From contig NZ_FUWS01000012.1 in the NCBI RefSeq assembly GCF_900167435.1, positions 130,323-194,322 on the forward strand: a DNA stretch of 64,000 bases, read 5' to 3'. The notes beneath the pieces were generated by a model. That model had not been told where the DNA came from, did not search any database, and saw nothing but the letters and a program-made list of their open reading frames with translations. The stretch comes from Marinactinospora thermotolerans DSM 45154 (GTDB lineage Bacteria; Actinomycetota; Actinomycetes; Streptosporangiales; Streptosporangiaceae). This document shows, piece by piece, positions 2,289-32,838 of this stretch. The position numbers and the translations under genes are program-made. How positions within the stretch are numbered: position 1 is the stretch's first letter; each line of letters begins with the position of its first letter.

Positions 2289-4888
<2,600 letters not shown>

Positions 4889-8191: not shown

Positions 8192-9700
8192 TCAGCGGGG
8201 CAGCCAGCCCCCCTCGCCCAGCATGGTGACGACCTCGGCGACGGACTCCTCGATCGTGGCGGCGGCGGTGTCGATCGTGAGGTCGGCGTCCTCAGGGGCC
8301 TCGTAGGGATCCGAGACCCCGGTGAACTCCGGGATCCGCCCGGCCCGCGCCTGGGCGTACAGCCCCTTGCGGTCGCGCGCCTCGCACACCTCGATCGGGG
8401 TGGCCACGTGGACCAGCAGGAAGTCGCCCGTGGCCTCCGCCATGGCGCGCACCTCGGCGCGGGTCGCGGCGTAGGGCGCGATCGGGGCGCAGATGGCGAC
8501 GCCGCCGTGCCGGGCGATCTCGGCGGCGACGTAGCCGATACGGCGGACGTTGAGGTCGCGGTCGGCCCGGGAGAAGGTCAGCCCCGACGACAGCATCCGC
8601 CGTACGACGTCACCGTCGAGGAGGGTCACGGTCCGCCCGGCGGCGCGGACGGCCTCGGCCACGCCGCGCGCCACCGTGGACTTGCCCGAACCGGACAGAC
8701 CGGTGAAGAAGAGGGTCAGGCCGCGGCGGACGCGCGGCGGCCGGCGGGCCGCGAGCGCCGCGGCGACCTCGGCGGGGGTGAACCAACCGGGCAGTTCCTC
8801 GCCGCGCGCGAGCATCAGGGCGACCTCGGCCTCGTCGGGCTCCTCGGCCGCGTCACCCGGTGCGACCAGGTCGGCCGGCCGCCAGGCGCCACGGGCCAGG
8901 TCGTAGCGCAGCGGAGGCGGGGCCAGGAAGGGGATGGGGGCGCCGTCGGCCGGAGGGGTGGCCATCGGCGTGGCGTGTTCGACCAGCACGTGCGTCGCGC
9001 CATAGGCCCGCGCCACGTGCGCGGCGAGGAGGGCGCGACGCGAAACGACGTCCTCGCCCGGGTCGAACCCGTCGCCGGGGCCGGGCAGGGTGACCACGAC
9101 GACGCGGGTCCCCTCGGGCAGCGCTCCGACCGCCGCGAGCACCATGGGCGCCGCCCCCTCGGAGTCGAGAGGGGCGTCGACGAGCACGAGGACATCGGCC
9201 GGGACGCCGCCACCGGCCTCCCGCGCGGCGGCCCGGACACGGTGCAGCGCCCGGTGGTGCAGTGGGGTGTCGGTGACGACCGCGAGCAGCGGTCGGTCGC
9301 CGCCCCCGTCACCGCGCTCGGCCCGCACCTCCTCGGCGGTGCGGCGGAGGTGGCGCAACGCTCCGTGGACCGGCGGTGCCACCGGGCGCACCGGTCCGGC
9401 GAGCCGGTGCCCTCCCTCCGCCCACCAGCGCTCGGTGACCTCCAGCTCGGCCAGCGGCGCTCCCTCGGGGTCGGTGAGCAACAGCCTTTCGACACCGGCG
9501 AGTTCGTCGGGGATCGGGAGCGTGACCGGCACCGGCCAGTCGGTCCCGTCGGGCAGCCGGCCGTGCTTGACCACCGAGGCCGCCTCGGCCGCGGTGAGGA
9601 AGCCGGCCAGCGGACAGGCGCCGCCCAGGATCAGTTCCAGGTGGGCCATCGCCTGGGGGTCGGGGGTGAAGGTCGGGCGGTCGCCGGCGGACCCGCTCAT
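8192..9700 (-). CDS. cysC: Adenylylsulfate (APS) kinase with degenerate N-terminal ATP-sulfurylase-like domain
   Basis: The C-terminal 175 residues are APS kinase, making PAPS from APS and ATP. The P-loop GLSGSGKST is near residue 332, followed by LLDGDVVRRMLSSGLTFS and DRDLNVRRIGYVA. The first 320 residues align with ATP sulfurylase at the start (LELILGGACPLAGFL, then WPVPVTLPI). The catalytic motifs are missing. QxRNPxHRAH is replaced by a TPLHHRALH string near residues 145-153, HPLVG by DAPLD, and GRDHAG by EHATP. I infer a pseudo-sulfurylase domain, with APS supplied by CysDN (28-30 kb). The ATG follows GAGGGAG. 502 residues. The gene precedes mfd in divergent orientation and could feed the nearby sulfotransferases with PAPS. 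Confidence 0.88.
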   Translation of the reverse strand: MSGSAGDRPTFTPDPQAMAHLELILGGACPLAGFLTAAEAASVVKHGRLPDGTDWPVPVTLPIPDELAGVERLLLTDPEGAPLAELEVTERWWAEGGHRLAGPVRPVAPPVHGALRHLRRTAEEVRAERGDGGGDRPLLAVVTDTPLHHRALHRVRAAAREAGGGVPADVLVLVDAPLDSEGAAPMVLAAVGALPEGTRVVVVTLPGPGDGFDPGEDVVSRRALLAAHVARAYGATHVLVEHATPMATPPADGAPIPFLAPPPLRYDLARGAWRPADLVAPGDAAEEPDEAEVALMLARGEELPGWFTPAEVAAALAARRPPRVRRGLTLFFTGLSGSGKSTVARGVAEAVRAAGRTVTLLDGDVVRRMLSSGLTFSRADRDLNVRRIGYVAAEIARHGGVAICAPIAPYAATRAEVRAMAEATGDFLLVHVATPIEVCEARDRKGLYAQARAGRIPEFTGVSDPYEAPEDADLTIDTAAATIEESVAEVVTMLGEGGWLPR

Positions 9701-13629: not shown

Positions 13630-14829
13630 TCAGGCGTCCTGGGGCAGCCACAGATCCGGGCCGAACACCTCGTAGTGGATGGAGCGCGGGGAGATCCCCG
13701 CGGCGAGCAGGTCGGCGCGGACGGCCCGCATGAAGGGGAGCGGCCCGCACATCAGGACCTCGGTGTCGGCGGGGATGTCCAGGCCGGTCAGGTCCATGCG
13801 CCCGGGTCGGGCGTCACTGTCCCCGGGGTCCTCGTACCAGACGACGCCGCGTGCCCGGGGCAGCCGGTCGATCAGGCCGGCGACCTCCTCGCCCAGCGCG
13901 TGGGTGCGGGGGGAGCGGTCGGCGTGCAGCGCGAGGACGGGCCGCTGCGAGCCGCTGTCGACGAGGTCGTGCAGGACCGCGGCCATGGGGGTGATCCCGA
14001 TGCCCGCGGAGACGAGGAGCAGCGGGGTGTCGCCGGGGCCGGGGACGACGTCCCCGAACGGGGCGGACAGGGTGAGTTCGGCTCCGACGTCCACGGTGTC
14101 GTGGAGCAGGGTCGAGACCTCTCCCTCGGGGGCGCCGGGCTCGCGGACCCGCTTGACGGTGATGCGCCGGGTGTCCCCGCCGGTGCCGCCGGAGAGGGTG
14201 TACTGGCGGAGCTGGTGCAGGCCGTCCGGCATGCGCACGCGGACGCTGACGTACTGGCCCGGCCGGGCCGGCGGGAGCGGGGCGGGGCCGGCGGTGGGAC
14301 GCAGGAGGAACGACACCGCGTCGGGCGTCTCCTGGCGACGTTCGACGACCGTCCAGGTCCGCCACACGTCGTCGCCGTCCTGGATCCCGGCGACGGCGCG
14401 CAGGCGCGCCTCTGCGGCGATGAGGGCGCCGGCCATGAGCCAGTAGACCTCGTCCCAGGCGGCGGCCACGTCGGGCGTCAGGGCGTCGCCGAGGACCTCG
14501 GTCATGGCGCCGAACAGGTACTTGTGGACGATGACGTACTGGTCGTCGGTGACTCCGACGGCGACGTGCTTGTGGGCGATGCGGGAGAGCAGGGCGTCGG
14601 GACGCTCGTCAGGGTGGTCCAGCAGCGCTCGGGCGAAGCCCGCGATGGAGCCGGCGAGGGCCCGCCGCTGTTCGCCATTGGCCTGGTTACCCCGGTTGAA
14701 CATGCCGTCGAGCAGGTCGGGGTGCTCGGCGAACATCGTGTCGTAGAAGCGAGCGGTGATCTCGTCCAGGGCCGCACCGACGACGGGCAGGGTCCGGCGG
14801 ACGAGTTCGGCGGATTCAGCGGACAGCAT
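13630..14829 (-). CDS. hmp: Flavohaemoglobin, nitric oxide dioxygenase
   Basis: About 399-residue Hmp-type enzyme oxidising NO to nitrate with O2 and NAD(P)H. The globin domain covers roughly residues 1-140, with the proximal-His region IAHKHVAVGVTDDQY and VHKYLFGAM. The FAD domain contains GQYVSVRV and RQYTLSGG. The NAD domain contains SAGIGITPMAAVLHDL and ends with MCGPLPFMRAVRADL and HYEVFGPD. The start ATG lies behind GGAGG. An NsrR-type operator lies 35 bases upstream and the nsrR gene is next, so nitrosative-stress induction is expected. Length and motifs are normal. Confidence 0.96.
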   Translation of the reverse strand: MLSAESAELVRRTLPVVGAALDEITARFYDTMFAEHPDLLDGMFNRGNQANGEQRRALAGSIAGFARALLDHPDERPDALLSRIAHKHVAVGVTDDQYVIVHKYLFGAMTEVLGDALTPDVAAAWDEVYWLMAGALIAAEARLRAVAGIQDGDDVWRTWTVVERRQETPDAVSFLLRPTAGPAPLPPARPGQYVSVRVRMPDGLHQLRQYTLSGGTGGDTRRITVKRVREPGAPEGEVSTLLHDTVDVGAELTLSAPFGDVVPGPGDTPLLLVSAGIGITPMAAVLHDLVDSGSQRPVLALHADRSPRTHALGEEVAGLIDRLPRARGVVWYEDPGDSDARPGRMDLTGLDIPADTEVLMCGPLPFMRAVRADLLAAGISPRSIHYEVFGPDLWLPQDA

Positions 14830-14863
14830 GCTGGGCCTCCTTCGGCGCGGAACACGACGCCTG

Positions 14864-14886
14864 AATAGGAATCTGAAATGCATATT
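14864..14886 (-). promoter_or_regulatory. NsrR operator upstream of hmp
   Basis: On the minus strand a perfect half-site AATATGCATTT is followed by one base and a second half AGATTCCTATT. Compared from memory with the published 11-1-11 NsrR dyad (AAnATGCATTT n AAATGCATnTT), the first half is exact and the second keeps about eight of eleven positions. It sits in the nsrR-hmp gap, where such a site is expected. Confidence 0.8.
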
Positions 14887-14932
14887 AAGACGCCCACGCG
14901 GCCTCCCCCATCCGGGTCCCGCCTACCCCGTT

Positions 14933-15385
14933 TCAGACGGGAAGACCGTCTCCCGGGGGCCGCAGCGCGTGGAGGACCGGCCCGGTCGGGGGCGCGACCA
15001 GCGATTCGACGCTGACCCCGTCGAGGGAGGCGAAGAAGGCCTCCTGCGCGGCCCGCAGGGCCCCGCGCAGGCGGCACGCCGACCGCAACGGACAGGGCGG
15101 GTCGTCCTCGCAGCCGACGACGTCCCCGCCCCCTTCGAGCTCGCGCACGATCATCCCGACCGAGGCGCGCCGCCCGGCCTCGGTCAACCGCAACCCGCCG
15201 CCCCTGCCGCGACGGGCCTCCACCATGCCCATGTCGGAGAGGCGGGCGACCACCTTGACGGCATGGCTGTAGGGCACCACCAGGAGTTCCGCGACCCTGC
15301 GCGTGGTCAGCAGCTCCCCCTCTTCCGCCACCGCGAGCCGCATCACGATGCGCAGTGAGAGGTCGGTGAAAGCCGTCATCCGCAT
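14933..15385 (-). CDS. nsrR: Rrf2-family Fe-S regulator NsrR
   Basis: 150-residue Rrf2 winged-helix repressor that senses nitric oxide through an iron-sulfur cluster. The N-terminus MRMTAFTDLSLRIVMRLA and the helix-turn-helix LTTRRVAELLVVPYSHAVKVVARL are typical of NsrR. The cluster ligands are visible as Cys-x5-Cys-x5-Cys in the segment GCEDDPPCPLRSAC, the same spacing as the Streptomyces protein. The gene is immediately upstream of hmp on the same strand, with the operator between. I used the ATG of MRMT; the ATG two codons later is also possible. Confidence 0.93.
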   Translation of the reverse strand: MRMTAFTDLSLRIVMRLAVAEEGELLTTRRVAELLVVPYSHAVKVVARLSDMGMVEARRGRGGGLRLTEAGRRASVGMIVRELEGGGDVVGCEDDPPCPLRSACRLRGALRAAQEAFFASLDGVSVESLVAPPTGPVLHALRPPGDGLPV

Positions 15386-15592
15386 ACCCCCACGGTAGGT
15401 CCTCGTCCAGGGGCGAACGGCCATCGCCCTCGACCACGCCACGGAAAAGAGACGGGCAGCCCCGGTTCAACATGCACGCCGAAAACCCTGTGCAAGGTAA
15501 ACCACGGAACGCACCCGAGCGACTACCCTTGGTGATTAACGTCCTCCGGACCGTGACCGGCCCCCGCCCCTCCCAGAAAGGATCGGCACCCC

Positions 15593-17212
15593 ATGGACAC
15601 CGCCGCCCCCGGACCCGAGCTCGCCGACTACACCGCCCTGCTGCGACGGCGCTGGTGGGTGGTCGCCGCCGGTACCGCGGCCGGCGTCGTCGTGGCCACC
15701 ACGGCCCTGTTCCTCGTGCCACGCTCCTACACCGCCGAGACCGCCGTGCAGGTCCTGCCCACCGGCATCGCCGAACTCACCGGCGAACGGTCGGGCCGCA
15801 CCAACGGCGAGGTCAACCTCGACACCGAGGCCCAGGTCGTCCGCTCCGCCGAGGTCGCCGGCACCGCGGTGGCCCGGCTGGGCACCGGCGAGGACGTCAC
15901 CGAGGTCCGCGAACGGGTCGAGGTCACGGTCCCGCCGAACAGCAGCGTCCTGGAGATCTCCTACTCGGCCGGCTCCCCCGAACACGCCCGCGCGGGCTCC
16001 ACCGCGTTCGCCGAGGCCTACCTCGACTACCGCGCCGAACAGGTCGGCGGCCAGATCGAGGGAAGGTTGGAGGCGCTACGCGCCGACCGCGACGAACGCT
16101 ACGAGGAGCTCGAGGAACTCGCCGAGCGCGCCGCTTCGGGCACCGGCGCCACCCGGTTGCGCGCCGAATCCCGCCTCACCTCGGTCCAGGACGAGATCTC
16201 CGAGCTCAACGCGCGGATCAACCCGCTCGCCGCGCTGGCCGACTCCCTCGACCCCGGCCGGATCATCACCGCCGCGGTCGCCCCCGAATCCCCCAGCTCG
16301 CCCATCCCCCACCTGTGGCTGGGCAGCGGCGCCCTGCTGGGACTGGTCCTGGGACTGGCCGTCGCCTACCTCGTCGACCGTGGCGACCCCCGGCTGCACA
16401 CCGTCCGCGAGCTCCAGCGCGCCGACGCGCCGGCGCTCCTGCTGGACCTGACCGGTGAGGGCCACGGCGGCGGCCGGATCGGGCTCTCGTCGTCCGGCTC
16501 CCGGACCGGTCAGGCCTTCAACGGCCTCGCGCACGCCCTGGGGGCCGCGCTCGGCGAGGACGGCCGCACCGTGGTGGTGACCGGTGCCTCGACCGGTCAC
16601 GCCGGGGCCACCGTGGCCGCCAACCTCGCCGCCGCCCTGGCCCGCACCGGAGCCGACGTCCTCCTCGTCTGCGCCGACCCCGACGGCGCCTCCGCCACCA
16701 GGGTCCTCAACCTGCCCGCGGGCCCCGGGCTCGCCGAGGTCCTCGCCGACGCCGCCGACCCCACCACGCTGGAGCGGCGCCCGGCCGCCCTTCCCGGCGT
16801 GCGCGTGCTCCTTCCCGGCGACGACCCCTCCCGCGCGGCCGAGCTGCTCCAGCGCGAGACGATGACCAGCCTGGTCGGGCGCCTGCGCGCCGACACCCGC
16901 CACGTCGTCATCGCCACCGCGCCCATGTCCGAACGGGCCGACGCCGCGGCGCTGGCCTGCGTGGCCGACGCCGTTCTCGTCGTGGTCGAGCTGGGGCACA
17001 CCCACGTGGCCGACCTCACCCAGGGCGCGCGGCGCCTGGACGGCAGCGGTACCGGGCTGCTGGGCACGGTGGTCCTGCCCCGCCAGGCCGTTTCAGCCCC
17101 GGCCGCCCCGTCACCGGCGGCCCCCGCGCGGTCGGAGCCCGCCGGCGACGACCTTCCCGACGCCACCACGAACGTCGGCAGCGACGACGCCGACCTGGCC
17201 TCGCGACGCTGA
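15593..17212 (+). CDS. Wzz-type chain-length regulator fused to a degenerate BY-kinase-like domain
   Basis: 539-residue polysaccharide co-polymerase. The Wzz domain begins at residue 12 (YTALLRRRWWVVAAGTAAGVVV, first membrane segment) and has an extracytoplasmic part with a coiled coil around residues 160-210. The second membrane segment is near residue 241 (WLGSGALLGLVLGLAVAYL). A ParA/BY-kinase-like fold follows. Its Walker A equivalent near residue 330 reads GASTGHAGATVAANLA without the usual Lys-Ser/Thr, Walker A' reads CADPDG, and there is no C-terminal Tyr cluster. It is therefore probably structural and not a kinase. The ATG follows GAAAGGA. It leads the left exopolysaccharide operon, and the next gene overlaps its stop by one base. 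Confidence 0.85.
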   Translation: MDTAAPGPELADYTALLRRRWWVVAAGTAAGVVVATTALFLVPRSYTAETAVQVLPTGIAELTGERSGRTNGEVNLDTEAQVVRSAEVAGTAVARLGTGEDVTEVRERVEVTVPPNSSVLEISYSAGSPEHARAGSTAFAEAYLDYRAEQVGGQIEGRLEALRADRDERYEELEELAERAASGTGATRLRAESRLTSVQDEISELNARINPLAALADSLDPGRIITAAVAPESPSSPIPHLWLGSGALLGLVLGLAVAYLVDRGDPRLHTVRELQRADAPALLLDLTGEGHGGGRIGLSSSGSRTGQAFNGLAHALGAALGEDGRTVVVTGASTGHAGATVAANLAAALARTGADVLLVCADPDGASATRVLNLPAGPGLAEVLADAADPTTLERRPAALPGVRVLLPGDDPSRAAELLQRETMTSLVGRLRADTRHVVIATAPMSERADAAALACVADAVLVVVELGHTHVADLTQGARRLDGSGTGLLGTVVLPRQAVSAPAAPSPAAPARSEPAGDDLPDATTNVGSDDADLASRR

Positions 17213-18609
17213 TGGACGTCTCCTCCACGTCGGGCGCGCCCGCGTCCCTCTCCCCGGCCGCCACTACTCCGTCCCGGTTCACCTCCTGGCCCGCCGGATG
17301 GCCGTTCGTCGCGCTGTTCGCCGGTTACCCCCTGTGGTGGGCCCTGGGGCTCGGCCAGTTCGCCTTCTGGGTATTCGCGCTGCCCATGGCGCTGCACCTG
17401 TGGCGCCGCAAACGCGCGGGCCTGCTGCGGCTGCCCCCGGGGTTCACGCTGTGGGCGCTGTTCCTGGTGTGGTCGGTGGCCGGTCTGGCGCTGCTCGGGC
17501 TCACCCCGCCCGGCGCGCTGCCCGGCAGCGCCGGACTCGCCGGCGCGCTCGTCCGGGTCCTCACCTACCTCGCCCTGACGGTGCTGCTGCTCTACGTCGG
17601 CAACCTCTCCCGCGCCGAGTTCTCCGACGGTGCCGTCGCGCGCGCCCTGGGCTGGCTGTGCCTGGCGACCGTCGCCGGGGGGCTGCTGGGCACGTTCGCG
17701 CCCTACTTCGAGTTCACCGCGCCGCTGGAGCTGCTGCTGCCCGGCCCCCTGGCCCGCGACCCCTACCTCCAGACGCTCATCCATCCCGCCGCGGCCCAGG
17801 TCATGGACGTCCTGGGGTACGAGGCACCCCGGCCCAAGGCGCCGTGGGAGTACACCAACTCCTGGGGCAACAACCTGTCGCTGCTGGTCATCTGGCTGGT
17901 CATCGGCTGGGTGTGCCGTGGGCGGGGATGGCGGCGGTGGACCGCCTGCCTGGCGCTGGCGCTGTCCGTGGTGCCGATCGTCTACTCGCTCAACCGGGGT
18001 CTGTGGGTGGGGCTGGCCCTGTCGATCCTGTTCGCGCTGGTGCAGCTGGCGCGCCGGGGCCGGATCGTCGAGGTGGGGCTGTGCTGCCTGGCGGGCCTCC
18101 TCGCCGCGGGGGCCCTCCTGCTCTCCCCCTTGATGGGGATCGTCGAGGACCGGGCCGCCAACCCGCACAGCGACGACGGCCGGGCCGTCGCCAGCGCCGC
18201 CGCCGTGCGCGCCGCGATGGACTCCCCCGTCATCGGCTGGGGCTCCACCCGCGAAGCCCTGGGCAGCGGCACCTCCATCGCCATCGGCAAGTCCCCCGAA
18301 TGCCCCCAGTGTGGCAACCACGTCATCGGCAACAACGGCCAGCTGTGGCTCCTCCTCATCGCGAACGGGTGGGTCGGGACCGCGTTCTTCCTGGGCTTCT
18401 TCGCCCAGGCGGTGTGGCGGCACCGGTTCGACGTGTCCCTGGTGGGTTCGGGTGCGCTGCTGACCGTCCTGCTGCTGTTTTGGTACATGTTCTTCTACGT
18501 CGCGCTCACGGCGCCGCTGGCCCTGTCGTTGACCGCCGTCGCCCTTCTGTGGCGCAGGTCCACGCCCGCCCCCGGCGCCGTCGCGACTCCCGAGGGGGTT
18601 GGGCGATGA
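17212..18609 (+). CDS. O-antigen ligase/Wzy-like polysaccharide polymerase
   Basis: 465-residue membrane protein with about ten to twelve hydrophobic segments. A large extracytoplasmic loop lies near residues 175-215. A second lies near residues 315-375 and contains RGWGSTREALGSG-like residues and a CPQCGNHVIGNNGQLW stretch. This layout matches the O-antigen ligase/Wzy superfamily, which joins lipid-linked repeat units or ligates polymer outside the membrane. The start overlaps the wzz stop (TGATG) and the end overlaps the next gene (ATGA), so translation is coupled. Polymerase is favoured over ligase because Wzz and Wzx partners are present. Confidence 0.8.
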   Translation: MDVSSTSGAPASLSPAATTPSRFTSWPAGWPFVALFAGYPLWWALGLGQFAFWVFALPMALHLWRRKRAGLLRLPPGFTLWALFLVWSVAGLALLGLTPPGALPGSAGLAGALVRVLTYLALTVLLLYVGNLSRAEFSDGAVARALGWLCLATVAGGLLGTFAPYFEFTAPLELLLPGPLARDPYLQTLIHPAAAQVMDVLGYEAPRPKAPWEYTNSWGNNLSLLVIWLVIGWVCRGRGWRRWTACLALALSVVPIVYSLNRGLWVGLALSILFALVQLARRGRIVEVGLCCLAGLLAAGALLLSPLMGIVEDRAANPHSDDGRAVASAAAVRAAMDSPVIGWGSTREALGSGTSIAIGKSPECPQCGNHVIGNNGQLWLLLIANGWVGTAFFLGFFAQAVWRHRFDVSLVGSGALLTVLLLFWYMFFYVALTAPLALSLTAVALLWRRSTPAPGAVATPEGVGR

Positions 18610-19841
18610 CCAGCGAAGCCGCCTATCTGACCGAGCTCGCCGAGATCCTGTGGCCCTGCGGCGGCACACTGGGCCGCGGCCGCGACGACTCCCCGTTCAA
18701 CGGCGCCGTCCCCCTCAGGTCGGGAGCGGCCCGCGAGTACCTTCCCGTGCCCTCGGCGCACAATCCGCGCATCATCCTGCCCGTCGCCAACCGCCACGCC
18801 GCCGCGCGCGGCGTGGCGGCGTTCGCCCAACGGCACTCGCTGCGCGACCGGGTCCGCCTCGTCCTGCTCACCGGCGCGTTCGCCAGCGGTGTGGCGCCCC
18901 TCCTCCTGCGCGACCGGCTGCGTGTGGCGTCGGGGCACGCGATCGAACACGCCCTGTCGGCCGCGCTGGACCGCGAGGTGGTGATCGCGATCCACGTCGG
19001 GCCCCCGCGGGCCAACCGCAAACCGGTGCTGTTGCTGCTCACCCCCGGCGGACGGACGATCGGCTACGCCAAGGTGGGGGTCAACCCGCTGACCTCGCGA
19101 CTGGTGTCGGCCGAGTCCGAGGCGCTGCGCCTCCTCGCCGAGACCCGTTTCAGCGGCATCACCGTGCCCCGGCCGTTGCACACCGGAACGTGGAACGGCC
19201 GACCCCTGCTGGTCCAAGAGCCCTTGCCGGTCGGCGACCAGACCGACCGCCCCACACGCCGCCAGCTCCTGCGCTGCGCGCTGGAGATCGCGGAGCTGGA
19301 GCCCCTGCGCGAGGAACACCTGTCGGCCTGCGCCTACCGTCACACCCTGGCCGAACGCATCACCGAGATCGGCGACCGCGCCGAGGCCCCGGCGCTGCGC
19401 GCCGCGCTGGAGGGACTGCCCGACGTGCGTCTGCCGTTCGGGGCCTGGCACGGCGACCTCACCCGGTGGAATCTCGCCTGTACGCCACGGCGCGCGTTCG
19501 TGTGGGACTGGGAGCGGTTGACCTTCGGTGTCCCCATCGGTTTTGACGTGCTCCATTACGAGCTGAACGAGTGCGTGCAGGCCGGCGTCCACCCGGGGGT
19601 CCACCGCTGGTTGGACAGTGGGGCGCGGCTGCTGCGCGACCCCCTGATGAGCGGTGCCGGGGTGCGCCCCGATTCCGTCTCCACCGTGATGGCGCTCTAC
19701 CTGATCGACCTGGCAACACGCTACCTGCGCGACCGTCAGGCCGAGGCCGGCGGTCGCCTGGCCGCCATCGACGACTGGCTCCTCCCGGCGCTGGCCGGAC
19801 TGGAGGAGCGGGCCGCCCACGAGGCACGCCTGTCCTGTTGA
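18606..19841 (+). CDS. APH-fold phosphotransferase-like protein in the polysaccharide operon
   Basis: 411-residue soluble protein whose C-terminal half has the aminoglycoside-phosphotransferase/choline-kinase fold. The catalytic loop WHGDLTRWNL (Asp near residue 284) and the metal-binding VWDWERL are present. GIGYAKVG-type strands near residue 150 take the place of the ATP-binding Lys region. The N-terminal 130 residues have no motif I recognise. Overlaps with wzy (ATGA) tie it to the exopolysaccharide operon. It could phosphorylate a sugar, a lipid carrier or a protein partner; the sequence does not say which. Aminoglycoside resistance is unlikely given the context. Confidence 0.75.
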   Translation: MTSEAAYLTELAEILWPCGGTLGRGRDDSPFNGAVPLRSGAAREYLPVPSAHNPRIILPVANRHAAARGVAAFAQRHSLRDRVRLVLLTGAFASGVAPLLLRDRLRVASGHAIEHALSAALDREVVIAIHVGPPRANRKPVLLLLTPGGRTIGYAKVGVNPLTSRLVSAESEALRLLAETRFSGITVPRPLHTGTWNGRPLLVQEPLPVGDQTDRPTRRQLLRCALEIAELEPLREEHLSACAYRHTLAERITEIGDRAEAPALRAALEGLPDVRLPFGAWHGDLTRWNLACTPRRAFVWDWERLTFGVPIGFDVLHYELNECVQAGVHPGVHRWLDSGARLLRDPLMSGAGVRPDSVSTVMALYLIDLATRYLRDRQAEAGGRLAAIDDWLLPALAGLEERAAHEARLSC

Positions 19842-19942
19842 CCCGCGTGCCCTCGCTCCGCCCGCCCACCGGCGGGCGGTCCCATCCACCGCCGCGCACC
19901 CGTCCGTTGGACGCGGTCCTCACAACCAGGAGCAACCAACCC

Positions 19943-20800
19943 ATGTCCGCCACCTTGTCCATCCCGCCGGCGATCGGCGCCCCGTTGCAGCGCACCGCGC
20001 GATCCGCCTCGGGGCTGTTCGGCCAGGCCACCCGGTCCATGCGCGTGCTTCCCACCTTCCTCATCGTGGGCGCGCAGCGTTGCGGGACGACGTCGCTGTT
20101 CAAGGCGCTGCTCCAACACCCCGACGTCTTGGGGCCCACCCTCCGCAAGGGGGTGCACTACTTCGACACCGGCTACGACCGGGGATCGGCCTGGTACCGG
20201 GGTCACTTCCCCACCCGGTCGCGGGCCCGCGACCGGCAGGTCGGCGAGTCCAGCCCCTACTACATGTTCCACCCGCTGGCCGCCGAGCGGATCGCCCGCG
20301 GCCTGCCCGGGATCAAGGTCATCGTGGCCCTGCGCGACCCGGTCGAACGCGCCTACTCCGCCCACGTGCACGAGAGCGCGCGCGGTTTCGAGACCGAGCC
20401 GTTCGAGCGCGCGCTCGAGCTCGAGGAGGAGCGGCTGCGCGGCGAGGAGGAGCGGCTGCGCGCGGAGCCCTGGGCCTACTCCCACAGCCACCAGCACCAC
20501 GGCTACCTGGCCCGTGGCCGCTACGCCGACCAGTTGGCGCGCCTGGAGAAGCACCTGGGCCGCGGCCGGATGCACGTCGTGGACAGCGAGGAGTTCTTCG
20601 AACGGCCCGAGGAGACGTTCGCGCGGATCGAGGACTTCCTCGGCCTGCCGCACCACTCCGACATCCGCTTCGAACGGCACAACGCCCGCCCCCGCGCGGG
20701 GATGGACCCCGTTCTGCGCGCCCGGCTGACCGAGTACTTCGAACCGCACGACGAGCGCCTGGCCCACTGGTGGGGGCGCACCCCGTCGTGGCGGCGCTGA
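19943..20800 (+). CDS. PAPS-dependent sulfotransferase, carbohydrate type
   Basis: 285-residue sulfotransferase expected to move sulfate from PAPS to a hydroxyl of a glycan or lipid. The 5'-phosphosulfate loop is FLIVGAQRCGTTSLFKAL near residue 39, and the 3'-phosphate motif is IVALRDPVERAYSAHVHE near residue 126. KGVHYFDTGYDRGSAWYRGHFP and the C-terminal SDIRFERHNARPR are typical of the NDST/HNK-like bacterial group. A Glu-rich stretch is near residue 155. I used the ATG behind AGGAG. It is plus-strand, 101 bases after the phosphotransferase gene, and inside the exopolysaccharide operon. The acceptor is not known. Confidence 0.9.
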   Translation: MSATLSIPPAIGAPLQRTARSASGLFGQATRSMRVLPTFLIVGAQRCGTTSLFKALLQHPDVLGPTLRKGVHYFDTGYDRGSAWYRGHFPTRSRARDRQVGESSPYYMFHPLAAERIARGLPGIKVIVALRDPVERAYSAHVHESARGFETEPFERALELEEERLRGEEERLRAEPWAYSHSHQHHGYLARGRYADQLARLEKHLGRGRMHVVDSEEFFERPEETFARIEDFLGLPHHSDIRFERHNARPRAGMDPVLRARLTEYFEPHDERLAHWWGRTPSWRR

Positions 20801-20852
20801 CCCGCGGCGCGTACGAGGGCCGCACGGCGGTGGCGAGATCCGGGAGGGGACG

Positions 20853-22412
20853 ATGGGGCACGGAGGCGACGGCGACACCGGACTGGGCCGGGTGGCCCGC
20901 GGCGGCGCGGTCGGCATGGCCGGCGCGGCGGCGGGTGCCGCGCTGAACGTGGCGCTCGTCGTGGCGGTCACCCGCGCCTTCGACCAGGAGACCGCGGGGG
21001 CCTTCTTCTCCGCCACCTCGGTGTTCCTCATCGTCGTCGCGGTCGCGGGCCTGGGCACGCCCAACGCGCTGGTCCACTTCACCGCTCGATCGCGGGCGCT
21101 CGGCGCGGCCGGACGGGTGCCGGCGCTGTTGCGGGCGGCCCTGGGGCCGGCGACCGCGGTCGCGGTGCTGCTCGCCGGTGTCCTGGCCGTCCTCGCCGAC
21201 GACTTCGCCGCCTGGCTCGGGGTGCCCGAGGCAGCCACCTACCTGCGGCTGCTCGCGCCCTTCCTGCCGTTCGCCGTGTGCATGGAGGCTGCGCTGGCGG
21301 TGTCCCGCGGGTTCCGCGACATGCGGGCGAGCGCCCTGTTGGACAAGGTGGCCCGCCCTCTGGCCCAGCTGGCGTTGCTCGGCGCGGTCACGGCCTCCGG
21401 CGGGGCCGCGTTGCTCGCGGTGGCGTGGGCCGGCCCCTACCTGCCGGCCGCGGTCCTGGCCTGGTGGTGGATGCGGCGCATCGCGCGCGGCCCCGCCGCC
21501 GGACCGTCGGCCGACGACGCCGGGGCCGTCGTCCCACGCCCGGTCGCCCGCCGTGAGCTGTGGTCGTTCGCGCTTCCCCGCTCGCTGGCCGACATCGCCC
21601 AGATCGGCAACCAGCGCAGCGGGATCGTGCTGGTGGCGGCCCTGCGCGGCGCGGCCGACGCCGCGTTGTTCACCGCGGCGACCCGGTTCATGGTCGTCGG
21701 CCAGTTCGGCGCGCAGGCGATCCAGTTCGCCGTCCAGCCCCGGCTGGCCGAGCTCCTGGCGGTGGGGGATCGGGACGGCGCGAACCGGCTCTACCAGGCG
21801 AGTACGGCGTGGCTGATCTGTCTGGCCTGGCCGTTGTACCTGTTGACGGTGGTGTACGCGCCCCTGCTGTTGCGCCTGTTCGGCGCGGATTACGCGGCCG
21901 GGGCCGAGGTGCTCGTGGTGATCACGTTGACGATGCTGCTGGCCTCGGGCTGTGGCATGGGCGACCTCGTCTTGATGACCGCCGGGCGCACGAGCCGCAA
22001 CCTGCTGAACAATCTCGCCTCGCTCACCGTGAACGTGGCGTTGTGCCTGCTCCTGGTCCCCATGTGGGGGGCCGTGGGCGGCGCGCTGGCCTGGTCGGCG
22101 GCGATCGTGCTGCGCAACCTCGCGCCCATCGTCCAGCTCGCCGGTTCGCGGGGGCTGCATCCGTGGAGCCGGGCGTGGCCGCTCGCGGCCGGGGTGTGCC
22201 TGTGGTGGTTCGGGGCGGTCCCCCTCGCCCTCCAGGCGCTGCTGGGGGGCGGGGTGGTGTCGTTGGCCGTGGCGTTGGCCGTGGGGGGCGCCGGGCACGC
22301 CGTGTCCCTGTGGCGGCTGCGCGTCCCCCTCGCGCTGGACGGTCTACGGGCCCCTCTGCGGGGAAGGGGCGAGGCGGTCACGTCCACGACGACGCGACAT
22401 CACGTGAAGTGA
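20853..22412 (+). CDS. Wzx/MATE-like polysaccharide flippase
   Basis: 519-residue membrane protein with about 12-14 hydrophobic segments, of the oligosaccharide flippase (Wzx/MurJ-like, MOP) superfamily. It should flip undecaprenyl-diphosphate-linked repeat units outward. The N-terminal GGAVGMAGAAAGAALNVALVVAVTRAF and ETAGAFFSATSVFLI match the usual first two helices. A central loop (ADDAGAVVPRPVARRELWSFALPRSLADI) starts the second half. The ATG has GGGAGGGG just upstream. Together with Wzz and Wzy it completes a Wzy-dependent export set. Confidence 0.87.
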   Translation: MGHGGDGDTGLGRVARGGAVGMAGAAAGAALNVALVVAVTRAFDQETAGAFFSATSVFLIVVAVAGLGTPNALVHFTARSRALGAAGRVPALLRAALGPATAVAVLLAGVLAVLADDFAAWLGVPEAATYLRLLAPFLPFAVCMEAALAVSRGFRDMRASALLDKVARPLAQLALLGAVTASGGAALLAVAWAGPYLPAAVLAWWWMRRIARGPAAGPSADDAGAVVPRPVARRELWSFALPRSLADIAQIGNQRSGIVLVAALRGAADAALFTAATRFMVVGQFGAQAIQFAVQPRLAELLAVGDRDGANRLYQASTAWLICLAWPLYLLTVVYAPLLLRLFGADYAAGAEVLVVITLTMLLASGCGMGDLVLMTAGRTSRNLLNNLASLTVNVALCLLLVPMWGAVGGALAWSAAIVLRNLAPIVQLAGSRGLHPWSRAWPLAAGVCLWWFGAVPLALQALLGGGVVSLAVALAVGGAGHAVSLWRLRVPLALDGLRAPLRGRGEAVTSTTTRHHVK

Positions 22413-22429
22413 CGTTTAAATTACTCACT
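22408..22429 (+). promoter_or_regulatory. BldD-like palindrome and possible promoter before the PssD-like gene
   Basis: Arms AGTGA and TCACT are separated by 12 AT-rich bases containing GTTTAAAT, as in the BldD box pattern AGTGA-n-TCAC. The left arm overlaps the flippase stop codon. The site is the most AT-rich stretch for kilobases and ends 19 bases before the next start, so an internal promoter is likely. BldD ownership is inferred from the pattern only. Confidence 0.4.
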
Positions 22430-22448
22430 GTTATGAGATCATGGCGGC

Positions 22449-22907
22449 ATGTCTTCCGCCCCTGTTCTGTTCGTCGCGTCCAGCGGGGGACACCTCGCCC
22501 AACTGTGTGCCCTGCGGCCGTGGTGGGAGGAACGAGAACGGGCCTGGGTCACGTTCCGCACCCCCGACGCGGAGTCCGCACTCGCCGGCGAGGACGTGCG
22601 CTGGGCCTACCACCCGACCACCCGCCACCTCGGCAACCTGGTGCGCAACACGGTGCTGGCCGCGCGCACGCTCGCGCGCACGCGACCCTCGGTCGTGGTC
22701 AGCACGGGCGCCGGAGTCGCCCTGCCGTTCTTCGCACTGGCCTGGTTGCTGCGGATCCCCACCGTCTACATCGAGGTCTACGACCGCATCGACACCCCGA
22801 CCCTGACCGCTCGGCTGTGCCGTCCGTTCACCCGCCTGTTCCTCGCCCAGTGGGAGGAACAGCGCGCGTTCATGCCAACCGCGATCACCGTAGGGCCGCT
22901 GCTATGA
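22449..22907 (+). CDS. Alg14/PssD-like glycosyltransferase subunit
   Basis: 152-residue protein resembling Alg14 and the bacterial PssD/EpsE subunit, the membrane-anchoring partner that recruits an Alg13-type catalytic subunit. The N-terminus LFVASSGGHLAQLCALRPWW is the family hallmark. RPSVVVSTGAGVALPFFALAWLLRIPTVYIEVY follows near residue 80, and the C-terminus ITVGPLL is typical. The next gene, overlapping by ATGA, begins with the Alg13/PssE half, so the pair should form one GT-B glycosyltransferase. By analogy with rhizobial PssDE it would add the second sugar to the primed lipid carrier. Confidence 0.88.
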   Translation: MSSAPVLFVASSGGHLAQLCALRPWWEERERAWVTFRTPDAESALAGEDVRWAYHPTTRHLGNLVRNTVLAARTLARTRPSVVVSTGAGVALPFFALAWLLRIPTVYIEVYDRIDTPTLTARLCRPFTRLFLAQWEEQRAFMPTAITVGPLL

Positions 22908-24388
22908 CCGAGCTTCGCATCCAGGCCGATCCCCGGCCGCTCATCCTCGTCACGGTCGGCACCGACCACCATCCCTTCGACCGGCTCATCGACTGGATCG
23001 ACGCCTACGCCGAGCAGCACCCCGGCATCCGCGTCCTGGTCCAGCACGGTGCGACACGCGCCCCCTCGATCGCCGAGGGCATCGCCTTCCTCGAACGCGA
23101 GTGGCTGGACTCCGCGATGCGGCGGGCCACCGCCGTGGTCACGCACGGCGGCCCGGCCACGATCACCGAGGTTCGCCGGCATGGCCGGCTGCCCATCTCG
23201 GTGGCCCGCGATCCCGAGCTTGGCGAGCACGTCGATGATCACCAGCTCCGCTTCGTGGCCCGGTTGGACGAGGCGGGGATGATCCGGTCCTGTGCGAGCT
23301 CCCAACAGTTGTGGGCGACCCTGGACAAGGCGCTCAAACAGCCGGACGACTTCGTGCTGGGGGAGACCGAGGGCGAGCGGCCCGACGTGGTCCGGCGCGC
23401 CGGTTCGCTCATCGACCTGCTGGTCACCGCGGAGCGGGGGCCCGTCGACCGCCCGCTCCCGCCGCCCGCCGAGCACACCGAGATGCCCGACGTGACCGTC
23501 GTGGTGCCCACCCGCGACCGGCCCGAGCTGCTGCGCCGCACGCTGCGCGCCATCGCCGTACAGGACTACCCCGGCCGGATCGTCACACTGGTGGTCTACG
23601 ACCACGACGAGCCCGACCACTCCCTCGCCGAGGACGGCGGCGACCGGCCGGTCCGGGTGGTGACCAACACCCACAGCCCCGGCCTCGCCGGTGCGCGCAA
23701 CACCGGGGTGCTCGCCGCCGAGACCGACCTCGTCGCGTTCTGCGACGACGATGACACGTGGCTGCCGAGCAAACTGCGCCGCCAGGTCGAGGTGCTGCTG
23801 GCGGAGCCCGAGACCGAGATCGTGTGCTGTGGTATCCGGGTCGCCTACGAGGCGACCGAGGCCGATCGGATCCTGGAGCGCACCACGATCACCTTCGCCG
23901 ACCTTCTGCGTTCCCGGCTGACCGAGCTGCACCCCTCCACCTTCGTGATCCGCCGCGATGCGATGGTGCACGGCTGCGGGACGGTCAGCGAGGAGATCCC
24001 CGGCAGCTACGGCGAGGACTACGAGCTGCTGCTGCGCCTGGCCCGTAGGGCCGCCATCCGCAACGTCCCCGAGGTGGGGGTGCGGGTGCTGTGGCATCCA
24101 CGCTCCCACTTCACCGGCCGTTGGCAGACGATCTCGACGGCCCTGCGCTGGCTGCTGACGGAGTACCCGGAATTCCGGCTGGTCCGGGCCGGTTACGCGC
24201 GGGTGGCGGGACAGATCGCCTTCGCCGAGGCGGCGGCCGGTCGCCGGCGCGCCGCGCTCGCGTGGGCCGCCGCCACGCTGCGCGCCCGGCCACGGGAGCC
24301 GCGCGCCTACCTCGCCCTGGCAGTGGCGTGCGGGGTGTCCCCCAACGCCGTCCTGCGCGCGTTGCACCTGCGGGGCAAAGGGGTGTGA
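22904..24388 (+). CDS. Alg13/PssE-like subunit fused to a GT2 glycosyltransferase
   Basis: 494-residue two-domain protein. Residues 10-170 are Alg13/PssE-like: PLILVTVGTDHHPFDRLI at the start, then VTHGGPATITEVRRHGRLPISVAR, the UDP-sugar site, and LGEHVDDHQLRFV. A Pro-rich linker follows. From about residue 195 a family 2 glycosyltransferase begins (DVTVVVPTRDRPELLRRTLRAI) with GLAGARNTGVLAA and the metal-binding FCDDDDTWLP near residue 279. A possible catalytic GEDYELLLRLARR follows. One polypeptide should therefore carry two consecutive transferase activities, the first needing the upstream PssD-like subunit. A terminator follows directly. Confidence 0.87.
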   Translation: MTELRIQADPRPLILVTVGTDHHPFDRLIDWIDAYAEQHPGIRVLVQHGATRAPSIAEGIAFLEREWLDSAMRRATAVVTHGGPATITEVRRHGRLPISVARDPELGEHVDDHQLRFVARLDEAGMIRSCASSQQLWATLDKALKQPDDFVLGETEGERPDVVRRAGSLIDLLVTAERGPVDRPLPPPAEHTEMPDVTVVVPTRDRPELLRRTLRAIAVQDYPGRIVTLVVYDHDEPDHSLAEDGGDRPVRVVTNTHSPGLAGARNTGVLAAETDLVAFCDDDDTWLPSKLRRQVEVLLAEPETEIVCCGIRVAYEATEADRILERTTITFADLLRSRLTELHPSTFVIRRDAMVHGCGTVSEEIPGSYGEDYELLLRLARRAAIRNVPEVGVRVLWHPRSHFTGRWQTISTALRWLLTEYPEFRLVRAGYARVAGQIAFAEAAAGRRRAALAWAAATLRARPREPRAYLALAVACGVSPNAVLRALHLRGKGV

Positions 24389-25388: not shown

Positions 25389-26717
25389 TCAGTCGCGCTC
25401 CTGGCGGGGATCGTCGCCGATCCCCTTCAGTTTGTCGACGAGCTCCAACGCCTCCAGGATCGCCTCACGGGCCTCGTCGGGGATGTTGAGGTAGTCGTGC
25501 CGGCTGGCCTCGACGAACCCCTCGCGGGCGGCCTCGTTCTTCAGCACCCGGAAGTCGCAGGTGGGAGCGGTCATGTCATCCCAGATCTGCACCGCCCGGA
25601 CCCGCTCGTACTTGGTCAGGGTCTCGGGGATCTCGGCGTACCACTGGGCGGTGGCGTCGGGATCGCCGGGGATCGGCACGGTCCCGGCCTCGCCGATCAT
25701 CACCGGCTTGTCCGGGTCGATGCCGTGCCGCTCGCCCTCGGTCTGCACCCACTCGTACATGGGCGCCAGGGCCTCCTCGAACGACAGGACGTGGTCCCAT
25801 CGCGGCTGCAGCTCGCAGCCGGTCATGTTGTAGGCCTCCCAGCTGATCCAGTCGACGTAGTCGTTGCCCGGCCACAGGCCCGGCAGACGGTCGAAGTTGT
25901 GCGGCCAGCCGGTCACGTTCCACACGAAGATCGCGTTGTCCGCGCCGTTGTCGCGGTACAGGTCGACGATGTGCCGCCACGCCTGGACGAACTCCCGTGG
26001 GGTGCCGCGCTTGTTGTAGCGACGGTTGGCGTCGGCCTCGTGGTCGAAGGTGATGAACACGGGCGCGCCGAGCTCGGCGACGCCCCGGGCCTGGGAGCGC
26101 AGCGAGTCGTCGAAGCGTCCCTCGATGATGTCGCTGTAGTCCACCGCGGGATGGCCCTTCCTGGTGAACCTGCGCGCCTCGACGTTGGCGTGGATGAAGC
26201 GCCCCTCGGCGGCGAGGTGCCGTTCCCGTTCGTTGGGCAGCTCGTGCTGGTCCACCCCGTGCCAGGTGTAGACGATGTCCATCCGCCGCCCGCTGGCCTC
26301 CTCCAGCGGGTAGACGTTGCCCCGCCACGGGCTGGCTCCCCACCAGACGCCGCACGACGGTTCGAGGATCTCGTCGACGCGGCAGTCGGGATCGGTCCCG
26401 GGAGAGGGAACGGTCGAGGGCCGCGGCGAGGGCGTACCGTAACCGGGCGGCAGGGAGAACGCCGGATGTGACGGGGTCGGGGAGGGCGCGTCGTGCCCTC
26501 CGATGGTCGTGGACGGTTCGTAGGTGGGCGAATCCGAAGGGTCGTCGTGCACGTTCGCGGGCCGTATGGTGTAGTCGCCGCAGCTGGTGACGAACAGTGT
26601 CACCGCGATGAACAGGGCGCCGGACCATGCGGCCCGGTGCCGTTGGCGACCTGGCCGAACCCGGCCCGTCCCTTTGCCCGATCCCCCCGTCTTCGCGGAA
26701 TCATCTTTTCCGCGCAT
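25389..26717 (-). CDS. GH26-like glycoside hydrolase, predicted lipoprotein
   Basis: 442-residue secreted protein. A basic N-terminus, a hydrophobic stretch near residues 32-46 and FVTSCGD give a lipobox-like Cys. A 60-residue Pro/Ser/Thr linker follows, then a TIM-barrel domain of the GH26 (mannanase/glucanase-like) type. Candidate catalytic residues are Glu in FITFDHEADANRRYN (acid/base) and Glu in KPVMIGEAGTVP (nucleophile). WNVTGWPHNFDRLPGLWPGNDYVDWISWEAYN fits the family strand 6. It may cut or trim the locus polysaccharide outside the cell, but the substrate is inferred from position only. The start could be the ATG used or a TTG two codons earlier; neither has a strong ribosome-binding site. 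Confidence 0.8.
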   Translation of the reverse strand: MRGKDDSAKTGGSGKGTGRVRPGRQRHRAAWSGALFIAVTLFVTSCGDYTIRPANVHDDPSDSPTYEPSTTIGGHDAPSPTPSHPAFSLPPGYGTPSPRPSTVPSPGTDPDCRVDEILEPSCGVWWGASPWRGNVYPLEEASGRRMDIVYTWHGVDQHELPNERERHLAAEGRFIHANVEARRFTRKGHPAVDYSDIIEGRFDDSLRSQARGVAELGAPVFITFDHEADANRRYNKRGTPREFVQAWRHIVDLYRDNGADNAIFVWNVTGWPHNFDRLPGLWPGNDYVDWISWEAYNMTGCELQPRWDHVLSFEEALAPMYEWVQTEGERHGIDPDKPVMIGEAGTVPIPGDPDATAQWYAEIPETLTKYERVRAVQIWDDMTAPTCDFRVLKNEAAREGFVEASRHDYLNIPDEAREAILEALELVDKLKGIGDDPRQERD

Positions 26718-27068
26718 ACACAACTGATTACCATATGAACACTTCTCGTAACGCTAAGTAACGGAAAACGGCGAGTTGCGGACCATCGGCATAGCCCGGG
26801 TCACGTTCTACCGGCGATCGCCCCCCCGCGGCCCCACAGCGCGCGTGGTCGCGCCCGCGTCCCTCCCGGTCCGGGCGCGCCGCCCACGGATCACCGGGGC
26901 CGCGACGGGGCACGGGGCGTCGGCCATCGCCGGCGGCGCGATCCGCCGCCCCTCGCCCTGATCGGACACGGGCCGCCGGGTTCCCCGAGGACGTCGACGA
27001 GGCCGGCCGGCGCCGCCGGCCCCCCATGCGCCGGCCCGGTCCGAACCCGCCGGACGGGCCGTGGCGGC
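26718..27068. other. Intergenic region upstream of the GH26-like gene
   Basis: 351 bases without a credible gene. The part next to the hydrolase gene (26718-26775) is unusually AT-rich and should contain its leftward promoter. A short GGCCGGC/GCCGGCC hairpin at 27001-27021 may end transcription of the sulfotransferase gene coming from the right. Nothing else was recognised. Confidence 0.55.
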
Positions 27069-28128: not shown

Positions 28129-29397
28129 TCAGCCGGTCTGGACGATCATGCCGGCCCCCACCGTCGTGTTCGTCCCCTCGTCGATGAGGACGAACCCGCC
28201 GGTGAGGCGGTTGCGCTTGTACTCGTCGGCGAACAACGGCTGGGTCGCGCGCAGGCGCACCCGGCCGATCTCGTTGAGGGAGAGGCGGTCTGCGGCCTCG
28301 TCCCGGTGGAGGGTGTTGACATCGAGCCGGTAGTGGAGGTCGCGGACCATCACCTTGGCCGTGCGCGTCGTGTGCTTGACGATCAGCCGGGAACGCGGGG
28401 TGAGGTCGCGCGCCTCCGACATCCAGCACACCATCGCGTCGATGTCCTGGGTGACGGCCGGCTGGTTGTTGGGCCGGCAGATCATGTCGCCTCGGGAGAT
28501 GTCGATGTCGTCCTCCAACAGGAGCGTGACCGACATCGGCGCGAACGCCTCCTCGACCTCCCCGTCGGCGGTGAGGATGCGGGAGATCCGGGTCGGCAGG
28601 CCCGAGGGCAGGTGGACGACCTCGTCGCCCGGCTTGAGCACGCCTCCGGCGACCTGACCGGCGTACCCGCGGTAGTCGTGCAGCCGGGGGTCGTCGGCGC
28701 GCTGCGGCCGGATCACGTACTGCACCGGGAACCGCACGTCGATGAGGTTGCGGTCGGAGGCGATGTGCACGTTCTCCAGGTGGTGCAGCAGCGAGGGGCC
28801 GTCGTACCACGGCATGTTGAGGGAGCGCTCGACCACGTTGTCCCCGTGGAGCGCGGAGATCGGGATGAAGGTCAGGTCGGTGACGTCGAGCTTGGTGGCG
28901 AAGGCCGAGAACTCGCGCTTGATCTCCTCGAAGCGCGCCTGGTCGTAGTCGACCAGGTCCATCTTGTTGACCGCGAGCACCAGGTGCGGGACCTGGAGCA
29001 GGGTGGCCAGGAAGGCGTGGCGGCGGCTCTGCTCCTGGAGCCCCTTGCGGGCGTCGACGAGGATGATCGCGAGGTCCGACGTCGACGCCCCGGTGACCAT
29101 GTTGCGCGTGTACTGGATGTGGCCGGGGGTGTCGGCGATGATGAAGGTCCGGCGCGGCGTCGCGAAGTAGCGGTAGGCCACGTCGATCGTGATGCCCTGT
29201 TCGCGTTCGGCGCGCAGACCGTCGGTGAGCAGGGCCAGGTTGGTCTGCTCCTCGCCTCGGGTGCGGCTGGTCCGTTCGACCGCGTCGAGCTGGTCCTCGA
29301 AGATCGACTTGGAGTCGTACAGCAGGCGGCCGATCAGTGTGCTCTTGCCGTCGTCGACGGACCCGGCCGTCGCGAATCGCAGGATGTCAGTGCTCAT
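28129..29397 (-). CDS. cysN: Sulfate adenylyltransferase subunit 1 (GTPase)
   Basis: 422-residue EF-Tu-like GTPase subunit that drives synthesis of APS from sulfate and ATP by CysD. Visible motifs are the P-loop TAGSVDDGKSTLIGRLLYD, GITIDVAYRYF, G3 ADTPGHIQYTRNMVTGAS, G4 AVNKMDLVDY and G5-like ISALHGDNV. C-terminal beta-barrel domains follow. There is no fused APS kinase domain, so APS kinase must come from elsewhere, probably the gene at 8192. It lies 78 bases downstream of cysD in the same operon. Confidence 0.97.
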   Translation of the reverse strand: MSTDILRFATAGSVDDGKSTLIGRLLYDSKSIFEDQLDAVERTSRTRGEEQTNLALLTDGLRAEREQGITIDVAYRYFATPRRTFIIADTPGHIQYTRNMVTGASTSDLAIILVDARKGLQEQSRRHAFLATLLQVPHLVLAVNKMDLVDYDQARFEEIKREFSAFATKLDVTDLTFIPISALHGDNVVERSLNMPWYDGPSLLHHLENVHIASDRNLIDVRFPVQYVIRPQRADDPRLHDYRGYAGQVAGGVLKPGDEVVHLPSGLPTRISRILTADGEVEEAFAPMSVTLLLEDDIDISRGDMICRPNNQPAVTQDIDAMVCWMSEARDLTPRSRLIVKHTTRTAKVMVRDLHYRLDVNTLHRDEAADRLSLNEIGRVRLRATQPLFADEYKRNRLTGGFVLIDEGTNTTVGAGMIVQTG

Positions 29398-29475: not shown

Positions 29476-30402
29476 CTAGAAGTAGCCCTCGCGCTTACGG
29501 TCCTCCATGGCCGCCTCGCTGGCGCGGTCGTCGGCGCGGGTCTGTCCGCGCTCGGTGATGCGGGTCGCCGCGATCTCGGCCATGACCTCGTCCAGCTCGG
29601 TGGCCGAGGAGCGAACCGCGCCGGTGCAGGTCATGTCGCCGACGGTGCGGTAGCGGACCATGGCCTCGAACACCGGTTCGTCGTCGTCCCGGGAGATGAA
29701 CGGGCTGTCGGCGAGCAGGATCCCGTCGCGCTCGAACACCCGGCGCCGGTGCGCGAAGTAGATCGAGGGGAGTTCCAGCCGCTCGCGCGCGATGTAGCCC
29801 CACACGTCGAGTTCGGTCCAGTTCGACAACGGGAAGACGCGGATGTGCTCGCCGCGGTTGATGCGGGTGTTGTAGATGTTCCACAGTTCGGGCCGCTGGT
29901 TCTTCGGGTCCCACTGGCCGAACTCGTCCCGGAAGGAGAACACCCGCTCCTTGGCCCGCGCCTTCTCCTCGTCGCGTCGCGCCCCGCCGAACGCGGCGTC
30001 GAAGCCGTTGTCCTCGATGGCTTCGAGCAGGGCCGCGGTCTGCAACCGGTTCCGGCTGGCCCAGCGCCCGGTGGGCTCGGTGACCTTGCCGGCGTCGATC
30101 TGCTCCTGGACCGAGGCCACGACCAGGCGGACCCCGGCCTGGGCCACCCGGCGGTCCCGGTACTCCATGACCTCGGGGAAGTTGTGCCCGGTGTCGACGT
30201 GCATGACCGGGAACGGGATCGGTCCCGGCCAGAACGCCTTCTCCGCGAGACGGAGCATCACGATGGAGTCCTTGCCGCCGGAGAACAGCAGAACCGGCCG
30301 CTCGAACTCGGCGGCCACCTCCCGCATGATGAAGATCGCCTCGGCTTCGAGGAAATCGAGTTGGGAGAGTTGGTAACGCCCCAGGGCCGCCGACTGACTC
30401 AT
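29476..30402 (-). CDS. cysD: Sulfate adenylyltransferase subunit 2 (catalytic)
   Basis: 308-residue PP-loop ATP pyrophosphatase subunit of ATP sulfurylase. The PP-loop LLFSGGKDSIVMLRLAEKAF is near residue 38. VMHVDTGHNFPEVMEYRD, GGARRDEEKARAKERVFSFRD, FPLSNWTELDVWGYI and the C-terminal KREGYF are all diagnostic for CysD. It starts 40 bases after cysQ with GAGGCGG ahead of the ATG. Its place behind a priming glycosyltransferase gene and cysQ, and not in a cysteine-assimilation operon, suggests dedicated sulfate activation for polymer sulfation. Confidence 0.97.
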   Translation of the reverse strand: MSQSAALGRYQLSQLDFLEAEAIFIMREVAAEFERPVLLFSGGKDSIVMLRLAEKAFWPGPIPFPVMHVDTGHNFPEVMEYRDRRVAQAGVRLVVASVQEQIDAGKVTEPTGRWASRNRLQTAALLEAIEDNGFDAAFGGARRDEEKARAKERVFSFRDEFGQWDPKNQRPELWNIYNTRINRGEHIRVFPLSNWTELDVWGYIARERLELPSIYFAHRRRVFERDGILLADSPFISRDDDEPVFEAMVRYRTVGDMTCTGAVRSSATELDEVMAEIAATRITERGQTRADDRASEAAMEDRKREGYF

Positions 30403-32712: not shown

Positions 32713-32838
32713 AAACTCCCACCTTCGACGGGGACCCCCTGTTTCCACGCACAACGACGTCACACAACGGCGGAGCCGGTCTCATTGGTGGGGATCAGGG
32801 GGCGCGGAATGCGCTCTGACCCGTAAAGAGTAGCTAAA

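Follow-up and report, generated by a model that had tools for sequence, protein, structure and literature searches.

The APS kinase gene in a 64,000-nucleotide stretch of the Marinactinospora thermotolerans DSM 45154 genome (the window) almost certainly encodes, judging from sequence comparison, a two-domain, monofunctional APS kinase with an intact C-terminal kinase behind an N-terminal sulfurylase-like domain (SLD) that has no active site. We consider it probable (roughly 0.7) that the enzyme turns APS made by CysDN into PAPS for exopolysaccharide sulfotransferases, and that the dead domain is retained for assembly or activation of the kinase. The architecture itself is already known from Thiobacillus denitrificans (2009) and Entamoeba; the new elements are how large and how separate the actinobacterial clade is, its link with cysDN, and a short form of ~400 residues. 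A literature search on dead sulfurylase domains in actinobacteria returned nothing relevant, which is no proof of absence. The gene has the following parts:

8192-9700, minus strand: two-domain APS kinase gene, 502 amino acids; ATG at 9700, last codon at 8195, stop at 8192-8194
9386-9673, minus strand: PUA-like N-terminal part of the SLD, residues 10-105, with a DPEG motif (Pfam PUA_2)
8741-9385, minus strand: dead Rossmann part of the SLD and linker, residues 106-320 (weak Pfam ATP-sulfurylase match; fold match to 3CR8 and other sulfurylases)
9248-9277, minus strand: former QxRNPxHxxH motif, now VTDTPLHHRA, residues 142-151 (alignment against intact fusions)
8912-8992, minus strand: former GRDHAG substrate-loop region, residues 237-263, 27 residues, partly of low model confidence
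9464-9466, minus strand: E79, counterpart of E90 in the Entamoeba histolytica enzyme EhAPSK, Glu in 60/60 aligned actinobacterial dead forms
8201-8728, minus strand: APS kinase domain (KD), residues 325-500, every signature intact (Pfam, NCBIfam and motif alignment)

The coordinates that an earlier, sequence-only reading gave for the gene are correct, with the amendment that it lies on the minus strand. A ribosome-binding site rated good (GAGGGAG, just 5' of the ATG at 9700) and the same MSGS start in the ortholog from locus L004 both back this start. A single chain joins the sulfurylase fold (residues 1-320) to the kinase (residues 325-500). Pfam matches are clear for PUA_2 (residues 14-93, 52.6 bits), weak for ATP-sulfurylase (residues 117-240, 26.1 bits against a cut-off of 24.3) and 191 bits for APS_kinase (residues 326-477). 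The protein passes the NCBIfam cut-off for apsK (TIGR00455, 181.8 versus 138.7 bits) and falls short of those for the bifunctional family PRK05537 (377.7 versus 669 bits) and the sulfurylase sopT (44.6 versus 322.95 bits). The kinase signatures GLSGSGKST, LDGD, RDRKGLYA and FTG are kept throughout the aligned orthologs, and together with the apsK score they bear out the earlier claim that the kinase half is intact. The PUA-like part is 64-77% identical to sister genera and 37-40% identical to intact and Thiobacillus proteins, while conservation is lowest in the Rossmann part, at 23-27% identity to intact or Thiobacillus-type proteins.

The active site was compared in an alignment of 91 sequences, which included 60 actinobacterial dead forms and, as intact controls, 26 fusions that all carry QxRNPxHxAH and GRDHA. 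The controls come from Rhodobacterales, Gammaproteobacteria, Acidobacteriota, Planctomycetota and a few actinobacteria (including the relative genome G046), and six further Rhodobacterales fusions checked outside the alignment were intact too. In the window protein, QTRNPLHRAH has become V142-T-D-T-P-L-H148-H-R-A151, so that the motif has lost Q, R, N and its second His, and the first His (H148) is its sole remnant. The stretch that carries GRDHAG, exactly 46 residues long in every intact sequence, is 27 residues long in the window protein, which thus lacks the QxRN, HxxH and GRDHAG motifs of a bifunctional Sat-APS kinase. This comparison confirmed the predicted loss of the sulfurylase active site, as the sequence-only reading had claimed. 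That reading had also seen 'EHATP' standing in for GRDHAG, a detail that we rejected: as a leftover of DHAGP it is not conserved, and sister genera show ERGAG, PHPAG, DRAPG or nothing at this position. The alignment was also used to look for catalytic residues at shifted positions, and none is preserved there. In 60/60 aligned dead forms from actinobacteria, the Q-R-N set, second His and GRDHAG loop are missing, and nothing conserved takes their place. It is therefore vanishingly improbable that the domain remains a working sulfurylase whose catalytic residues have moved, even with H148 of HxxH kept and the fold intact, and the presence of CysDN also speaks against this idea.

An AlphaFold model of the window protein, built with 24 sequences, has a mean pLDDT of 88.8 and a pTM of 0.85. 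Its best fold match is 3CR8 (Z 31.1, rmsd 2.9 over 453 residues), but Penicillium 1I2D and Aquifex 2GKS follow no more than 1 Z unit behind, and therefore fold alone does not choose among them. By sequence, 3CR8 ranks first by far (2e-89 in one search and 5e-147 in another). This structure is a hexameric two-domain APS kinase with no sulfurylase activity, according to the account of Gay, Segel and Fisher (2009, Acta Cryst D 65:1021) given in PMC13213808 and PMC3734648. The T. denitrificans enzyme shares with the window protein its domain order, fold, intact kinase and inactive sulfurylase-like domain. However, it keeps the Q and first His (QARQPMHRAQ, compared with VTDTPLHHRA) and a 46-residue loop (compared with 27), and branches separately in the kinase tree. 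The second sulfurylase also differs, being a stand-alone Sat in the near relatives of Thiobacillus at L113 and L121 and CysDN in the window genome. EhAPSK likewise combines a dead N-terminal SLD with an intact kinase, and its substrate loop is missing where that of the window protein is shortened; the crystal structure of its dead domain (PDB 23VK/23VL) has no such loop (PMC13213808). EhAPSK is a mitosomal eukaryotic enzyme for sulfolipid synthesis, with 477 residues and a shorter domain, in contrast to the 502-residue bacterial protein. Bifunctional Sat-APS kinases (Aquifex 2GKS, PRK05537, Rhodovulum L099) have the same architecture, which is likely the ancestral state; those checked among our loci keep QxRN, HxxH and GRDHAG, unlike the window protein, which scores below the PRK05537 cut-off. 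Fungal ATP sulfurylase (Penicillium 1I2D, 1M8P) has the same two domains and fold with one of the two dead, but is the reverse case, in which the dead domain is the kinase and senses PAPS.

Matches to the window protein, some to the kinase half only, were found in 54 of 60 relative genomes. Named members of the clade are Streptomonospora, Nocardiopsis, Actinomadura, Actinoallomurus, Micromonospora, Dactylosporangium and Saccharopolyspora, and none of the sampled orthologs from these genera has the sulfurylase motifs. The motifs are kept in fusions from Rhodobacterales, Acidobacteriota and others. On the kinase tree the actinobacterial dead forms make up one clade (support 100), and the Thiobacillus-type dead forms are interspersed with intact ones. 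This placement suggests that sulfurylase activity was likely lost repeatedly, yet the data do not statistically reject a tree with all dead forms in one clade (p-AU 0.19), and repeated loss is therefore not proven. Outside the actinobacteria, dead or partly dead fusions occur at L113, L117, L121 and L142, and their loss patterns all differ (QPEHALFRPQ, QPYEPVHRAE, QAGQPLHRPQ and QTHRAIHRAQ, respectively). A Dyella fusion (L139:10001-11590) has intact sulfurylase motifs and a very long KD branch, and its kinase half may be altered. The ~400-residue form, which has lost the end of the SLD and the linker, is present in about a dozen genomes (including L049, L039, L041, L045 and L031); its structure prediction was poor (mean pLDDT 60) and the model was not used.

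Purifying selection acts on the dead domain. Within close pairs, dN/dS is 0.14-0.36 for the SLD, with 0.03 in one near-identical pair, compared with 0.08-0.24 for the KD, and in Micromonospora the SLD value is close to that of the kinase. Between the window protein and its nearest relatives, which are at greater divergence, SLD dN/dS is 0.47-0.50. Relative to the KD, these values indicate that the domain is maintained, less strictly than the kinase. Eight residues (E22, G33, D77, E79, G80, A84, G102 and G113) are identical in 46/46 long forms, and dead and intact proteins alike carry E22, L75, D77, E79, G80, A84 and G102. At P82, G113 and W273 the 46 long dead forms are invariant, where intact ones mostly have M, Y and Y. 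A functionless domain in decay would be consistent with the loss of parts of it in the ~400-residue forms and with the fast divergence of the Rossmann part, but dN/dS is far below 1 in every close pair, and this, with the eight invariant residues, makes such decay very unlikely.

A role for the retained domain is suggested by its homologs. Removing the dead domain of EhAPSK lowers kcat ~100-fold, although the deletion construct aggregates, per its authors, and E90A or Y133A lowers kcat 21-60-fold; E90 and Y133 touch the kinase domain of the neighbouring subunit (PMC13213808). With EhAPSK numbering shifted by 23 to allow for the tag (verified at K315, R418, K421 and F435), E90 aligns with E79 and Y133 with G113, which is Gly throughout the actinobacterial clade, so that one contact residue is retained and the other lost. 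The E79 position is also Glu in 25/26 intact fusions and is not specific to dead domains. The Thiobacillus equivalents of E90 and Y133 are given as E106 and P142 (PMC13213808); P142 agrees with our alignment, but the aligned Glu is chain residue 108, not 106. The mode of action of the domain differs between the two enzymes, with a dimer and a flexible domain in EhAPSK and a tightly packed hexamer in Thiobacillus (PMC13213808).

The window also contains the genes expected of a sulfation pathway:

28129-29397, minus strand: CysN, GTPase subunit of the APS-making ATP sulfurylase, with no CysC fusion
29476-30402, minus strand: CysD, catalytic subunit of ATP sulfurylase; no second full CysD was found in the genome
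27069-28121, minus strand: sulfotransferase (Sulfotransfer_3), adjoining cysN
19571-20800, plus strand: second sulfotransferase (Sulfotransfer_3/_1), among the polysaccharide genes; its true start may lie downstream of the listed ORF start
30443-31204, minus strand: inositol monophosphatase/CysQ-like phosphatase, candidate PAP recycling enzyme; start approximate
15593-24388, plus strand: exopolysaccharide genes (Wzz, O-antigen-ligase-like, flippase, Alg14-like, glycosyltransferases)
31240-32763, minus strand: initiating sugar transferase (Bac_transf)

The proposal that the enzyme completes a PAPS route is supported by CysDN and the two sulfotransferases within the same window. No other Sat-type sulfurylase was detected in the window's own genome. 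A CysH encoded elsewhere in this genome has CC...CxxC cysteines, which we take to be the APS reductase motif, and cysteine synthesis therefore should not need PAPS. Across 41 order-level genomes, the APS kinase and CysD genes share a contig in 24 and lie ≤25 kb apart in 22, among them the genomes whose contigs span several megabases. Much of the window's gene group recurs at L065-L070, L072 and L110. A full CysD was found in 13/13 tested actinobacterial genomes with the dead domain, compared with 5/31 genomes of intact fusions (Fisher p 9e-5, ignoring common descent). The dead-domain genomes L113 and L121, which have no CysD, have a stand-alone Sat (about 300 bits), and no other sulfurylase was seen in the draft dead-domain genome L142. 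In Aestuariicella (L104:10001-14237), an intact Sat-APS kinase fusion directly adjoins cysDN, an apparent redundancy of two sulfurylases.

In the explanation that we favor, APS would be made by CysDN and phosphorylated to PAPS by the window enzyme, and PAPS would feed the two nearby sulfotransferases of the exopolysaccharide locus; from its gene context, the sulfated product is presumably an exopolysaccharide. The SLD would descend from a working bifunctional enzyme and would have lost catalysis because CysDN, another sulfurylase, already makes APS. It would have been retained for keeping the kinase oligomer assembled and the neighbour's KD active by contact, and by comparison with the homologs this assembly or activation role is the most likely one. 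The sequence-only reading offered an allosteric or a docking module. Allostery is plausible by analogy with EhAPSK (PMC13213808), but an allosteric sensor that mirrors fungal sulfurylase and binds APS, PAPS or ATP without turnover seems unlikely. The predicted overall fold is kept, the domain is under selection and the mirror case in Penicillium is established (1I2D/1M8P); against these points, Q, R, N, one His and 19 substrate-loop residues are gone, the Rossmann part is the least conserved, and the ~400-residue forms lose still more.

We regard as equally doubtful a role as a docking module, which would place the kinase next to CysDN for direct hand-over of APS. Many bacteria have CysC fused to CysN, so that proximity seems useful, and both the linkage of CysDN to the APS kinase gene in most long-contig genomes and the consistent co-occurrence with CysD fit such a module. 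However, Thiobacillus-type dead domains are found in genomes without CysD (L113 and L121), and at L104 CysDN also sits beside an intact fusion. Somewhat less doubtful, though still unlikely, is a scheme in which the actinobacterial SLD, as a separate lineage, was rebuilt into a regulator of polysaccharide sulfation. Such a regulator would split APS between APS reductase (for cysteine) and PAPS, might bind CysDN, and in one subgroup would have been trimmed to ~230 residues, the smallest module.

The graded series of intact fusion, dead long form and dead ~400-residue form amounts to a natural deletion series for the role of the dead domain in the kinase. The Thiobacillus and Entamoeba arrangement is not rare: a large group of actinobacteria usually has its APS kinase in this form, tied to cysDN and sulfotransferases. 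In the named actinobacterial genera, a label of bifunctional sulfurylase/kinase on these genes would be mistaken.

Some other genes in the window also drew attention. A predicted lipoprotein-like protein (25389-26723, minus strand) has no Pfam match, appears glycoside hydrolase-like by eye, and is conserved near sulfation genes in relatives, at 67% in L066 and about 25-30% in others. At 13630-15442, between mfd and the polysaccharide genes, are a globin and an NAD-binding oxidoreductase (flavohaemoglobin-like) and, by eye, an Rrf2-like regulator. A TauE/SafE family (sulfite exporter-like) gene (3947-4888, plus strand) lies close to the APS kinase gene, as it does at L071 and L074.
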